Shown here: positions 8,205 through 28,826 of the stretch, piece by piece | Layout: each line of letters opens with the position of its first letter | How positions within the stretch are numbered: the stretch's first letter is position 1 | DNA from: Salinarchaeum sp. | GTDB lineage: Archaea > Halobacteriota > Halobacteria > Halobacteriales > QS-1-68-20 | Direction: 5' to 3' | Length of the DNA: 32,275 nt | NCBI GenBank assembly: GCA_007122875.1 | Contig: SKSS01000022.1 | Coordinates: 1 to 32,275, forward strand | Notes under the pieces: model-generated | What the model saw: the letters and a program-made list of their open reading frames with translations, nothing else | Database searches by the model: none | Told to the model about the DNA's origin: nothing | Made by a program: the position numbers and the translations under genes

Positions 8205-8801
8205 ATGACCGTCAGGGACGTTACCGACCTGTACGAGGAGTTCGGGGATGAGCGTCTTCCCCCTGGACAGCGCGAGACCTCAGCGTTTCCCGTGCTCTCG
8301 AAGGGTGACACGCCGTCGTGGGATCCGGAGACGTGGGAGTTTCGCGTCTGGGGTGCCGTCGAGGAGGAGCTAACGCTCGATTGGGAGGCGTTCACGGCAC
8401 TTCCCGCCGAGACACAGCAACAGGATTTCCACTGTGTAACCGGCTGGAGCAAGCTCGACTGTGCGTTTCGGGGAGTTCCGTTCCCGGAGATTATGGATCT
8501 AGTGGGCGTCCGTGACGAGGCCGACCACGTCATGTTTCACGCGCTCGACGGATACACGACCGACCTCCCGTTGGCCGACTGCGACCGGCGGGAAGTGCTG
8601 TTCGCCTGGGAGTACGACGACCGGCCCCTCCCGCCGGAACACGGCGGACCGCTTCGGGTCGTCACCCCACACCGGTACGCCTACAAGGGGGCGAAGTGGG
8701 TCGACGGCGTCGAGTTTCTAACCGAGTCAGAGCCGGGCTACTGGGAGAAACGCGGCTACTCAGTGACCGCGAACCCGTGGGAGGAAGAACGGTACGCATG
8801 A
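8205..8801 (+). CDS. Sulfite-oxidase-like molybdopterin-dependent oxidoreductase
   Basis: The 198-residue protein is the oxidoreductase molybdopterin-binding domain of the sulfite oxidase/MsrP (YedY) superfamily. Cys77 in DFHCVTGWSKLD is the expected molybdenum ligand. Further family features are GVPFPEIMDLVGV, HALDGYTTDLPL and the late PHRYAYKGAKWVDGVEFL. There is no twin-arginine signal, heme domain or membrane segment, so a soluble cytoplasmic protein is likely. The substrate cannot be told from sequence. The following 85 bases hold no convincing gene before menF; the two may be separate units. Length is normal for short archaeal members. Confidence 0.92.
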   Translation: MTVRDVTDLYEEFGDERLPPGQRETSAFPVLSKGDTPSWDPETWEFRVWGAVEEELTLDWEAFTALPAETQQQDFHCVTGWSKLDCAFRGVPFPEIMDLVGVRDEADHVMFHALDGYTTDLPLADCDRREVLFAWEYDDRPLPPEHGGPLRVVTPHRYAYKGAKWVDGVEFLTESEPGYWEKRGYSVTANPWEEERYA

Positions 8802-8886
8802 ACGCGGAAAACGACCCGTTCGTCGAGCGTCCGTTTCCTCGCTTGGATAGTCAGGCTAAAGAGGAAACGACCCGCAGGGGGGGTCA

Positions 8887-10221
8887 ATGGAAACGCTGAG
8901 TGAGGGGGCGGTCGTCACCGAGAATGGCCGGCTGGTGAGTCGCACCTGCGAGGTGCCCGATGTCTCCTATCGAGCGTTCCTGTCGGGACGGGGCGCGCCG
9001 CGAATTTACTGGGCGACCCCGGACGGATTCGAGGTCGTCGGCGTCGGGGCCGCTGCGATGGTGACGGCGTCGGGCTCCGATCGATTCGGGTCGCTCCAGC
9101 GAGATGCGGTGACACTCTTCGAGGAAGCAGACAGCGACGGACCCGAGGTGGCTCGTCCCAGAGCGTTCGGTGGACTGTCGTTCGGCGATGCTCACGAGTC
9201 GGCCTCCCCGTGGGACGGCTTTCCGGCTGCGGGGTTCGTCGTTCCCCGGACGACGCTCACCCGAGCGGAGGGAACGACGTGGCTGACGGTTACCGAAGTC
9301 GTCGACGAACCGGACACAGACGACATCGAAACCGAACTGGAGCGATCCCGACAGCGTGTCGTTGACCTGCCGATGCTCCGCCCGACGTCCGATCCGCCCG
9401 GCGTGCTCGCCACGCGGTTGACGGCACCACGGGAGGAGTGGACCGAACAGGTCGCACGGGCCGTCGACCGGATCCGGGACGGAGCCCTTCGAAAGGTCAC
9501 GCTCGCAACGTCGATGGAAGTCGACCTCGAATCCGAACTCACCATTCCGGCCGCGCTGGAGCGATTCCGACGGACGTATCCCAACTGCTACCGGTTTCTC
9601 GTCCAGCCGACCGACGACGCCGCGTTCTTCGGTCCCCCTCCCGAGCGACTCGTCCGACTTCGGGGGAGTCGAATCGAGACCGAAGCGCTCGCCGGCTCGA
9701 TGCCACGGGGTGAGACGCCGACGGAGGACAACGGCTTTGCCGACGCGCTGGTCGAAAGCGAGAAAATCAGACACGAACAGCAGCTGGTCGTCGACGCTAT
9801 TCGGGAGCAACTCGAACCGATCGCGGACGTACGCTGTGGTGACCGAGGGATCAGAAAGCTGGCGAACATCCAGCACCTCCACACGCCGATCCGTGCCAGT
9901 CTCGATACGGATGTCCACGTGCTGGAAGTCGTCGAGGCGCTTCATCCGACGCCCGCCGTCGGCGGGCTTCCGCTGTCGAAGGCGCTGGCGACGATTGAGG
10001 AGATTGAGTCGTTCGATCGGGGATGGTACGCCGCTCCGATCGGCTGGTTCGACGGCGACGGCGACGGCGAGTTCGCGGTCGGAATCCGGTCAGGGGTGGC
10101 GAGCGGAGATCGGGTGACGCTGTTCGCAGGGAACGGAATCGTCGCCGATAGCGATCCCGACGAGGAGTGGGAGGAAGTACAGCCGAAGTTCCGCCCCGTT
10201 CTCGAAGAGCTGGAACGATGA
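8887..10221 (+). CDS. menF: Isochorismate synthase
   Basis: MenF isomerises chorismate to isochorismate, the entry step of menaquinone synthesis. The 444-residue protein carries the chorismate-binding domain in its C-terminal half: LAGSMPRGETPTEDN, the long helix ALVESEKIRHEQQLVVDAI, then IQHLHTPIRASL, HPTPAVGGLPLSKAL and FDRGWYAAPIGWFD, the usual order for isochorismate/anthranilate synthases. The N-terminal part is less conserved, as expected. It is followed directly by menD, the next enzyme. Its stop TGA (10219-10221) overlaps an ATG that begins a chain of tandem repeats leading to the menD start. A salicylate-type isochorismate synthase is possible on fold alone, but menD next to it settles the pathway. 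Confidence 0.95.
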   Translation: METLSEGAVVTENGRLVSRTCEVPDVSYRAFLSGRGAPRIYWATPDGFEVVGVGAAAMVTASGSDRFGSLQRDAVTLFEEADSDGPEVARPRAFGGLSFGDAHESASPWDGFPAAGFVVPRTTLTRAEGTTWLTVTEVVDEPDTDDIETELERSRQRVVDLPMLRPTSDPPGVLATRLTAPREEWTEQVARAVDRIRDGALRKVTLATSMEVDLESELTIPAALERFRRTYPNCYRFLVQPTDDAAFFGPPPERLVRLRGSRIETEALAGSMPRGETPTEDNGFADALVESEKIRHEQQLVVDAIREQLEPIADVRCGDRGIRKLANIQHLHTPIRASLDTDVHVLEVVEALHPTPAVGGLPLSKALATIEEIESFDRGWYAAPIGWFDGDGDGEFAVGIRSGVASGDRVTLFAGNGIVADSDPDEEWEEVQPKFRPVLEELER

Positions 10222-10333
10222 CCGAATGCAGTCGAACCATGAACCGATGACCGTGTACAATCGAACCATGAACCGATGACCGTGTACAATCGAACCATGA
10301 ATCGATGACTGTGTACAATCGAACCATGAACCG
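10218..10333 (+). repeat. Four 29-base tandem repeats between menF and menD
   Basis: Units begin at 10218, 10247, 10276 and 10305, and the next unit position (10334) is the menD start codon. Every unit begins ATGAC and ends with ATGAACCG or ATGAATCG. Units 2-4 differ from each other at only two bases; unit 1 differs at four more near its start. Each unit encodes a 10-codon mini-ORF (MTVYNRTMNR; unit 1 gives MTECSRTMNR) whose TGA overlaps the next unit's ATG as ATGA. The first ATG overlaps the menF stop and the last TGA overlaps the menD start. The mini-ORFs are recorded as part of the repeat because none is shown to make a functional peptide. Confidence 0.95.
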
Positions 10334-12088
10334 ATGACCGATCCGAACCGAAACGCGCTCTGGGGGCGCGCCCTCGCCGAGGAACTCGCAGCGGCTGGCG
10401 TGGACGGTGCGTGCGTCGCTCCCGGCAGCCGATCGACGCCGATGACTGTCGCGCTCGCCGATCACGACGGCATCGACGTCTGCTCGCATCTCGACGAGCG
10501 TTCGGCGGCGTTCTTCGCGCTCGGCCGTGGCCGGCGAACTGGCCGGCCGACAGCGGTCGTCTGCACGTCCGGAACCGCGGCCGCCAACTTCCACCCGGCG
10601 GTGATCGAGGCCGACCAAGCGCGGGTTCCGTTGCTCGTGCTGACAGCCGACCGTCCCCCAGAACTCCGTGACAGCGGTGCGAACCAGACCGTCGATCAGG
10701 AGAAGCTCTACGGGGACGCCGTCAGGTGGTACCGTGACCTTCCCGAACCGGAGGCCGATCCCCGGAAACTCCGACGGCTCCGCACCGACGTGGCCCGCGC
10801 AGTCGCGACCACGACCGGAAGTTTACCGGGACCCGTCCACCTCAACGTCCCGTTCCGGAAGCCGCTGGAACCTGTCGACGTGCCCGGTGACGTTCCGGAC
10901 GACCTTGACCCGCTCGCATCGAAGGGTCGGCCGGGCCCGTTCGTCGAAACGACACCCGGACAGCCGGTTCCCGACTCGGCTGCGATAGCGACGCTCGCGG
11001 ACGCGCTCGTTGCTGCGACCCGACCGCTGATCGTCGCCGGGCCAGCGGACGGCCCGACACCGTCTCGGGACGCGCTCGCGGACCTCGTCGCGGTGACGGA
11101 TGCGCCCCTCCTCGCGGATCCGCTCTCGGGCCACCGGTTCGGCCACCGCGTCACGGAGGTTCCGGTCTGTGGGGGCTACGACGCCTACATCTCCGGCCTC
11201 CCCGATCCCGATTTCGTCCTTCGGTTCGGGGCCTCTCCCACCTCCAAGCCACTACGACACGCCCTCCGTGATGCTGACTGCAGGCAGGTCGTGGTCGATC
11301 CGGCCGGCGGCTGGCGCGAGGCCGAGTTCACGGCCACCGACCTCGTCGTCGCCGACTCGACCCGACTGACCCAGAACCTAACAGCAAGGATCGAGGACAC
11401 GGGAGCGTCCCCCGAGAACGGCTGGAGAGACCGATGGGCGGCGGCCGAACGCCGATACTGGGACATCGTCGACGCCGATCGATCGGCCGCGATGGAGGGA
11501 TCGGTCCTCGCCGACGTGGCCGCGCTGTCGCCCGATCCGTCCACCCTGTTCGTCTCGAACTCCATGCCCGTTCGGGATCTCGATCGCTTCGGCCGTCCCC
11601 GAGACGCCGACGTGACGGTGCTGGGGAACCGGGGTGCCAGCGGCATCGATGGGATCATCTCGACGGCGCTCGGAGCCGGCAGCGCCACCGACGACCCGCT
11701 CGTGCTCGTCACGGGGGATCTCGCGTTCTACCACGATATGAACGGACTGCTCGCGTTGGAACGCTGTGGGATCGACGCGACGATCGTGGTGGTGAACAAC
11801 GACGGCGGTGGGATCTTCCACATGCTGCCGATCGAGGGGTACGATCCCCCGTTCACCGAGCAGTTCAAGACGCCACACGGTCTCGATTTTGCCCCAACGA
11901 CCGACCTCTACGATCTCGACTTCGAACGGGTCGAAGCGGGCGAGCCGTTTCGGAAGGCGTTCCGAGGGGCCGTCGAGAACGGCGGGACACAGGTGATCGA
12001 GGTGCCGTTCGATTCCCGCGAGAGCCACCGACTGCGGGAGGCGATCACGGACCGGGCGCGGGACGCGATTCGGTCCGACGCTCCCTAA
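10334..12088 (+). CDS. menD: 2-succinyl-5-enolpyruvyl-6-hydroxy-3-cyclohexene-1-carboxylate synthase
   Basis: MenD is a thiamine-diphosphate enzyme that adds a succinyl-semialdehyde unit from 2-oxoglutarate to isochorismate, the step after MenF. The 584-residue protein has the conserved Glu55 in SHLDERSAAFFALG (the thiamine-activating residue of the family) and the cofactor-binding segment from GDLAFYHD (Asp462) to VVNNDGGGIF (Asn489). The segments APGSRSTPMT and CTSGTAAANFHPAVIEA are also typical. The ATG at 10334 overlaps the stop of the last upstream mini-ORF, so translation is probably coupled to menF through the repeat chain. No menB or menE follows; the next gene is convergent, so later pathway steps lie elsewhere. 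Confidence 0.96.
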   Translation: MTDPNRNALWGRALAEELAAAGVDGACVAPGSRSTPMTVALADHDGIDVCSHLDERSAAFFALGRGRRTGRPTAVVCTSGTAAANFHPAVIEADQARVPLLVLTADRPPELRDSGANQTVDQEKLYGDAVRWYRDLPEPEADPRKLRRLRTDVARAVATTTGSLPGPVHLNVPFRKPLEPVDVPGDVPDDLDPLASKGRPGPFVETTPGQPVPDSAAIATLADALVAATRPLIVAGPADGPTPSRDALADLVAVTDAPLLADPLSGHRFGHRVTEVPVCGGYDAYISGLPDPDFVLRFGASPTSKPLRHALRDADCRQVVVDPAGGWREAEFTATDLVVADSTRLTQNLTARIEDTGASPENGWRDRWAAAERRYWDIVDADRSAAMEGSVLADVAALSPDPSTLFVSNSMPVRDLDRFGRPRDADVTVLGNRGASGIDGIISTALGAGSATDDPLVLVTGDLAFYHDMNGLLALERCGIDATIVVVNNDGGGIFHMLPIEGYDPPFTEQFKTPHGLDFAPTTDLYDLDFERVEAGEPFRKAFRGAVENGGTQVIEVPFDSRESHRLREAITDRARDAIRSDAP

Positions 12089-27828: not shown

Positions 27829-27844
27829 GCACGAACGACGGGTT

Positions 27845-27910
27845 TTCGGCTTCGATCCATCACCTCCTGTTTCGGCTTCGAGCCATCACCTCCTGTGTCG
27901 GCTCGATCCA
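27845..27910. repeat. 26-base tandem repeats
   Basis: Two copies (27845-27870 and 27871-27896) differ at one base and a third is partial (from 27897). Each begins TTCGGCTTCGA and ends CCATCACCTCCTGT. The ATCACCTCCT core is identical to the conserved 3' end of 16S rRNA; the opposite strand therefore reads AGGAGGTGAT. Confidence 0.85.
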
Positions 27911-27938
27911 GAGCTGGTATCGAACCATATCACTGACC

Positions 27939-28025
27939 CGTCTGATCTCGAATCACACCGACTGATACGTCTGATCTCGAATCACACCGACTGATACGTC
28001 TGATCTCGAATCACGCCCACTGATA
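27939..28025. repeat. Three 29-base tandem repeats upstream of a stress-protein gene
   Basis: Copies start at 27939, 27968 and 27997. The first two are identical; the third differs at two bases. Each begins CGTCTGATCTCGAATCAC and ends ACTGATA. The block ends 39 bases before the ATG of the universal stress protein gene. The repeats contain the imperfect dyad GATCTCGAATC. Confidence 0.92.
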
Positions 28026-28064
28026 CCGCTCGGGACCGTACCCGTAGGGGGGTATCACCTGGCA

Positions 28065-28826
28065 ATGGCTGATGGAGACGACCATCGGATTCTCGTTCCC
28101 GTCGACGTTCTCGGCGGCCAGAGCGTTCCGTCGACGATCATCGAGGCGTTCGCGTCGGTTCCGGTCGTCCTGCTCGGATACCACCAGGTTCCCGATCAGA
28201 CGCCATCGGGGCTGGCTCGTTCGAAGCACGAACAGCGGGCGCGAGCGGAGCTCGAAGAACTCGAAACCGTGTTCGAAGCCGCCGGCTGTCGGGTCACCAC
28301 GCAGCTCGTGTTCACCCGTGACCGATTCACGACGTTCGAACGGGTCGCGATCGAACGATCGTGCGACGCCGTCTTGCTGACGAACCCGGCCCCGCTCCTC
28401 GATCGAATTCTTGTCGCGATCCGTGGGGACGTCGCGGTCGATCACATCGCTCGACTGGTGTCGGCGGTTCTCGCTGACACGACGATCGACGTGACGCTCT
28501 TTCACGTGGCGTCGACTGAGGAGGGGAGAGAACGCGGGCGAGCACCGATCGAGTATGCAGCGAAGACGCTCGAAGCACACGGCGTCGAACGCGACCGGAT
28601 CGACACCGACATCGTCGTCGACCGCTCGCCCACTGACGCCATCGTCGACGCCGCTGCCGATCACGACCTGATCGTCGCCGGTGAGAGCCGTCCATCGCTG
28701 CAGCGGTACATCTTTCGGGACCGCGTCGAACGGATCGCCAAGCGCACGCGCGATCCGATTCTCGTGATTCGCGCGGAGTATCTCGAGGACGACCCGTTCG
28801 AGACGAACGATGCCCGATCGTCGTGA
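28065..28826 (+). CDS. Universal stress protein family, probable tandem-domain
   Basis: The 253-residue protein resembles two consecutive Usp folds: an N-terminal half starting RILVPVDVLGG with a conserved central stretch VVLLGYHQVPDQ, and a C-terminal half starting RILVAIRGD and ending with the nucleotide-site-like segment LIVAGESRPSL and IAKRTRDPILVIRAEY. Usp proteins bind ATP or act as regulators of stress and transport; which applies here is unknown. A near-identical layout is seen in the second stress protein gene after the permease, so they are paralogues. A clear TATA box was not found; the tandem repeats upstream may be regulatory. Confidence 0.85.
   Translation: MADGDDHRILVPVDVLGGQSVPSTIIEAFASVPVVLLGYHQVPDQTPSGLARSKHEQRARAELEELETVFEAAGCRVTTQLVFTRDRFTTFERVAIERSCDAVLLTNPAPLLDRILVAIRGDVAVDHIARLVSAVLADTTIDVTLFHVASTEEGRERGRAPIEYAAKTLEAHGVERDRIDTDIVVDRSPTDAIVDAAADHDLIVAGESRPSLQRYIFRDRVERIAKRTRDPILVIRAEYLEDDPFETNDARSS

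Follow-up and report, generated by a model that had tools for sequence, protein, structure and literature searches.

How could menD remain translationally coupled to menF when four tandem 29-bp units have come to stand between them? The question is raised by a stretch of haloarchaeal DNA of 32,275 nt, referred to here as the window, in which the two genes, both of the vitamin K pathway, are joined by a chain of short open reading frames rather than by a direct overlap. From the sequence comparisons reported below, the array is likely to be a relay of mini-ORFs that arose from a duplicated ATGA junction and that was retained as it keeps menD coupled to menF.

Geometry of the menF-menD array

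Direct reading of the sequence places four 29-bp units at positions 10218-10333, between menF and menD, which are themselves 112 nt apart (Table 1). The menF stop codon TGA (10219-10221) sits inside the first ATGA of the chain. Starting from this ATGA, each unit comprises 10 codons followed by TGA, and each TGA shares an ATGA with the next ATG, giving the same stop/start overlap at all five hand-overs from menF through mini-ORFs 1 to 4 to menD. TRF reported the array at 10216-10340 (period 29, 4.3 copies, score 208, 91% matches) as the best-scoring one in the window. The reading and TRF together confirm the initial annotation, which had described the units as ATGA-linked 10-codon mini-ORFs running from the menF stop to the menD start.

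Table 1. Features of the menF-menD junction in the window
Feature	Coordinates	Strand	Description
menF-type isochorismate synthase	8887..10221	+	ORF of 444 aa; Chorismate_bind PF00425, E 3e-76
Mini-ORF 1	10218..10250	+	ATG ACC GAA TGC AGT CGA ACC ATG AAC CGA TGA, encoding MTECSRTMNR and stop; unit 10218-10246
Mini-ORF 2	10247..10279	+	MTVYNRTMNR and stop; unit 10247-10275; direct reading
Mini-ORF 3	10276..10308	+	MTVYNRTMNR and stop; unit 10276-10304; direct reading
Mini-ORF 4	10305..10337	+	MTVYNRTMNR and stop; unit 10305-10333; TGA overlaps menD ATG
menD (SEPHCHC synthase)	10334..12088	+	ORF of 584 aa; TPP_enzyme_N/C domains; start ATGA

The menD start is well placed, since the MenD N terminus aligns with its relatives from residue 1 or 4; the closest MenD matches are all from Halobacteria, at identities of at most 70%. 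The host genome, G000, is a 125-contig MAG of 1.9 Mb, ~60% complete, and its genus and family have no other genome in the compared set; the copy number of the array in this fragmented assembly may vary or be misassembled. A 251-bp junction query against the ~60% complete host genome returned only the self-match. The 29-bp unit was not found in viral contigs, and the junction had no match in plasmids. The oxidoreductase gene located 5' of menF also terminates in ATGA (region 8798-8886), and the 33-codon ORF that begins at that ATG misses the menF start.

Four bases, spread over three mini-codons, separate copy 1 from copy 2, and every one of these changes is nonsynonymous. Selection on the mini-peptides at the protein level was dropped as a candidate, as copy 1 differs from the others at three codons, and this difference in mini-peptide sequence between copy 1 and copies 2-4 was counted against the relay reading. 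Copies 2-4 differ by two C/T changes, both synonymous in the mini-ORF frame. The initial annotation was correct on this point, but the weight it gave to the observation did not hold: 4 of the 8 possible C-to-T changes in the 29-bp unit are synonymous, and finding both of them so is therefore weak evidence.

The number of linked mini-ORFs adds little either. When an array with a period of 29 is seeded by an ATGA, a chain follows unless a stop intervenes, and 68% of shuffled units were free of an intervening stop. The chain is thus one geometric coincidence, copied four times; the actual coincidence, a period of 2 mod 3 (1 in 3), is to be counted once. The closing rule is a unit length of 3n+2 with no internal stop, not 29 as such.

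Other menF-menD junctions and other gene pairs

A total of 150 distinct haloarchaeal menF-menD junctions were gathered from genome contigs and classified. Bare ATGA is the commonest state (75 of 150); 7 junctions have a bare GTGA, 7 have other short overlaps, and 37 are gapped with no ATG in the menF stop. At 10 of the 150, ATGA is kept at the menF stop and the menD start is displaced downstream. Nine of these 10 are closed by relays of one to four mini-ORFs, each of 5-27 codons. Single mini-ORFs form the relays of L046, L067, L085, L098, L359, and L404; L089 has two (MTVYN and MTVTHDHR, each followed by a stop), L410 has three, and the window has four. At the tenth junction, L405, the mini-ORF stops one base before the menD start and leaves the step unclosed. 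At a closing chance of 0.3, the binomial probability of 9 closures in 10 is 1.4e-4, or 4e-4 if L085 and L098, which share a mini-ORF, are counted once. Apart from this pair, the relay mini-ORFs look mostly unrelated in sequence, so they do not descend from a single element. Where the menF stop carries GTGA, the junction is closed in only 2 of 14 cases, versus 9 of 10 for ATGA (Fisher p ~0.0005). The GTG of GTGA is a weak start.

Chain-breaking spacers, which the initial annotation had named as evidence against coupling, do occur between menF and menD in some haloarchaea, but the ATGA at the menF stop has mostly been lost there too. Among Haloferax junctions (L071, L074, L078, L079, and L080), the genes are uncoupled, with spacers of 48-120 nt that hold short repeats and have irregular lengths; spacer length is free where the ATGA link has been lost.

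For other gene pairs, 394 genomes of the order were searched for a pattern of four ATGA spaced 29 bases apart. Chains anchored at both ends join a hydantoinase_A-like gene (hyuA) to a URO-D-like gene in G153 and a RibD_C gene to an HD domain gene in G265, each with 3 units of 29; in G174, a phytoene-desaturase-like gene is linked to UbiA by 6 units of 29 and then a 20-codon mini-ORF that hands over by ATGA. Relatives of two of these genomes retain the simple state. Where G153 carries 87 inserted bases (3 x 29), G075 and G222 have a bare ATGA (...ATCGAACGATGAGC...) with flanks alike, and their downstream proteins are 95% and 92% identical, respectively, to that of G153. Similarly, G381 has a bare ATGA at the RibD_C/HD junction where G265 has three units. 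Copy number thus stands at 0 versus 3 at two homologous junctions. These insertions of 3 x 29 bases, together with the frequency of bare ATGA between menF and menD, bear out the proposal in the initial annotation that the array grew from an ATGA overlap. At several loci, moreover, the unit starts like the downstream gene and finishes like the upstream gene: the unit MTVEYWQVAR (stop) sits between ...WQVAR (stop) and MTVDS..., and the unit MNITYTFGAIT (stop) sits between ...LGAIT (stop) and MNITYTY.... The units appear to be copies of the local junction, as expected from tandem duplication across it.

Several further arrays were set aside as clean chains, namely, G050 (TspO and then 6 units), G332, G188, and G000:C7, with a far-end gene that was unconvincing, an early stop, or a last step that was unclosed. 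The last of these is a 29-bp ATGA array (ATGAGGGTTGACGAGCAGTACACACATTC) at C7:13037-13156 of the host genome (L116 and L120), with a TPP-enzyme gene on one side and a gene for a small membrane protein on the other. Its mini-ORFs are open and its ends are joined to neither gene, and it was counted against the relay reading.

Three other arrangements were observed in passing. At G153:C12:351790-351923 (L296), alternating 13-base units, ATGAACGCAGCGA and ATGAACACGACGA, lie immediately 5' of a 173-codon ORF, and the unit pairs form 26-base ATGA chains. In the viral contig L161, a purine-rich GGAGGT stretch and start codon are triplicated at intervals of 29 bases, which is start-site duplication of another kind. 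A 181-nt gap of the host (L210) holds a 62-codon relay ORF with degenerate internal repeats (DRPSRTDRP...) that closes from ATGA to ATGA and is flanked by two well-scored genes.

Searches were extended to periods of 28, 26, and 30 in 285 haloarchaeal genomes and to periods of 29, 26, 32, 28, and 31 in viral contigs. Arrays anchored in both genes occur at 8 independent loci: the window, G153, G265, G174, and the viral loci L186, L476, L498, and L494 (plus three near-identical contigs). Their periods are 26, 29, and 32 only, all 3n+2. The existence of 26- and 32-base chains overturns the earlier statement that only a length of 29 preserves coupling; any 3n+2 would serve. Overall, the interpretation in the initial annotation is supported in part. 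No both-end-anchored array was seen at period 28 in the 285 haloarchaeal genomes and viral contigs or at period 31 in the viral contigs, and the period-30 arrays among 20 loci that were retrieved for inspection were intragenic or without both anchors. Finding 8 of 8 loci at 2-mod-3 periods has p ~0.004 if three periods against three are equally likely; the result is weaker (p ~0.03) when weighted by the rough array count per period. For the viral contigs alone, the comparison is nonsignificant (5/193 arrays versus 0/96, p = 0.13), the five including the doubtful L166, which was discounted as a chain because one unit carries a stop. A 26-bp array in G155 was left out of the count, being anchored at the downstream start and not at the upstream stop.

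A rough genome-wide test, run with a purpose-written simple gene caller, covered ~1.8 Mb, of which 1.2 Mb came from the host and 0.6 Mb from related loci. Of 13 pairs that have a gap and an ATGA in the stop of the first gene, 8 were closed, compared to 11 of 48 for control ATGs (p = 0.012), a modest enrichment that is not fully independent of the junction survey, as the 8 closed pairs include the menF-menD junctions of the window, L046, and L067. Single relays of 9-15 codons were found in the host at L124, L228, L266, and L272.

A relay model and its alternatives

We propose that an ancestral ATGA overlap would have coupled menF and menD by termination-reinitiation and that slippage or tandem duplication would have lengthened this junction locally by copying a 29-base segment. 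Because 29 is 2 mod 3 and no in-frame stop interrupts the unit, the added units would become linked mini-ORFs of 10 codons, each with its start on the preceding stop and its stop on the next start. A ribosome ending menF would then re-initiate on mini-ORF 1, terminate, and repeat this stepwise until it reached menD, with no untranslated gap to cross; the chain would matter, and the mini-peptides would not. Copies would survive because each relays terminating ribosomes onward and menD stays coupled to menF, and selection against uncoupling would retain only chain-closing arrays. We infer both the travel of ribosomes through the relay and the selection against uncoupling. A constraint that keeps chains closed is supported by the displaced-start menF-menD junctions (9/10) and by the both-end-anchored arrays (8/8 at 2 mod 3).

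Published requirements for coupling are consistent with such a relay. In Haloferax volcanii, coupling drops 40-60% at ~13 nt and is near zero at 22-23 nt (PMC10666635), so that menD would be expected to lose its coupling across 112 nt of bare spacer. In Escherichia coli, the last 15 nt of the upstream gene are enough for re-initiation, and a 33-nt ORF can therefore serve. Given these distance and length requirements, 33-nt ORFs with ATGA hand-overs would satisfy the known needs at every step.

An extension of the relay model, compatible with it, is that the number of mini-ORFs acts as a dial for MenD output, with ribosomes lost at each hand-over and slippage varying the count. In published assays, each step of re-initiation is incomplete (PMC10666635), and arrays grow by whole steps, with 3-6 units at different junctions; however, it is not evident what a cell would gain from making less MenD per MenF, and we consider this extension unlikely.

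Alternatively, the array could be a neutral minisatellite that grew by slippage in a spacer no longer important, with the ATGA chain a by-product of its seed. Arrays of the control word AGTA (the pattern reversed) with period 29 occur in 7/394 genomes, as do ATGA arrays; being equally frequent, such arrays arise without a link to translation. Both the host and its relatives commonly carry tandem repeats with units of 26-29 bp, also without ATGA, and array growth is common in the host genome outside coupled junctions. Within the window, two intergenic arrays without ATGA (27932-28026, period 29, and 27844-27910, period 26) lie 5' of a Usp-domain gene (28065-28826). A single closed chain could moreover be chance, as an ATGA-seeded array closes ~1 in 4 times (about 1/3 x 0.7), and several Haloferax species have the free-length, repeat-bearing, uncoupled spacers described above. 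Against this explanation, nine of the 10 ATGA-keeping displaced menF-menD junctions are closed where ~3 would be expected, the both-end-anchored arrays all have periods of 2 mod 3, and sister species retain a bare ATGA; we regard neutral growth as quite improbable.

It is highly improbable that the array serves menD as a promoter of its own, as a regulator-binding array, or as an RNA element: the MIRU-containing senX3-regX3 spacer of Mycobacterium tuberculosis does drive senX3-independent regX3 expression (PMC4213456), and ORF repeats and promoter activity can therefore coexist, but a simple consensus check for the independent promoter raised in the initial annotation found no TATA-like box in the array better than 4/6, RNA folding of the array was no better than shuffled (z -0.22), an Rfam search of it gave no family above chance, and repeat-free spacers in other species close likewise.

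Returning to the relay, similar chains elsewhere suggest that repeats are tolerated since a ribosome can move on to the next gene while staying bound. More tentatively, and with considerable doubt, mini-ORF relays derived from ATGA duplication may form a widespread, unannotated class in archaea and phages, in which ribosomes are processive and copy number is a heritable translation dial. Sister species that differ by 0 or 3 inserted mini-ORFs offer natural experiments on termination-reinitiation, and the menF-menD chain demands five consecutive re-initiations. If ribosomes traverse such chains, re-initiation would be efficient and processive, with scanning unneeded, and tiny ORFs in the intergenic spaces of operons should be regarded as couplers, not noise or peptides.

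Comparison with known systems

In bicistronic designs and minicistron leaders, as in the two-codon minigene of axe-txe (PMC8708949), a short ORF supplies a downstream gene with ribosomes or influences its translation, and spacing and frame matter there as they do here. These systems, however, have a single leader ORF, engineered or of two codons, and lack a tandem chain with its anchor in an upstream gene. Minisatellites and VNTRs grow in tandem by whole copies, and the menF-menD array likewise consists of head-to-tail, near-identical copies; unlike minisatellites, units of the menF-menD type are limited to lengths of 2 mod 3 and end exactly on a stop and start codon.

The MIRU of senX3-regX3 (Supply 1997, per review PMC12548453) are tandem ORF-bearing repeats inside an operon with -4 coupling, the same arrangement as at menF-menD. 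Their units of 77 and 53 bp are both 2 mod 3 (PMC4213456), and their copy number differs between strains (PMC12548453). MIRU is, however, one dispersed, apparently mobile sequence family, whereas the menF-menD unit was found only at its junction (in a host genome ~60% complete) and units at comparable haloarchaeal loci copy their own flanking junction. By the dispersal criterion, the menF-menD array is not a MIRU.

TeRe pairs of H. volcanii and E. coli also hand over at ATGA and depend on distance (Huber 2019, PMC6728339; Huber 2023, PMC10666635). Like them, menF-menD is a co-directed pair, here haloarchaeal, with a stop/start overlap (ATGA/TGATG) at each hand-over. The known TeRe cases join two genes directly, whereas menF and menD have four mini-ORFs between them and need five consecutive hand-overs.
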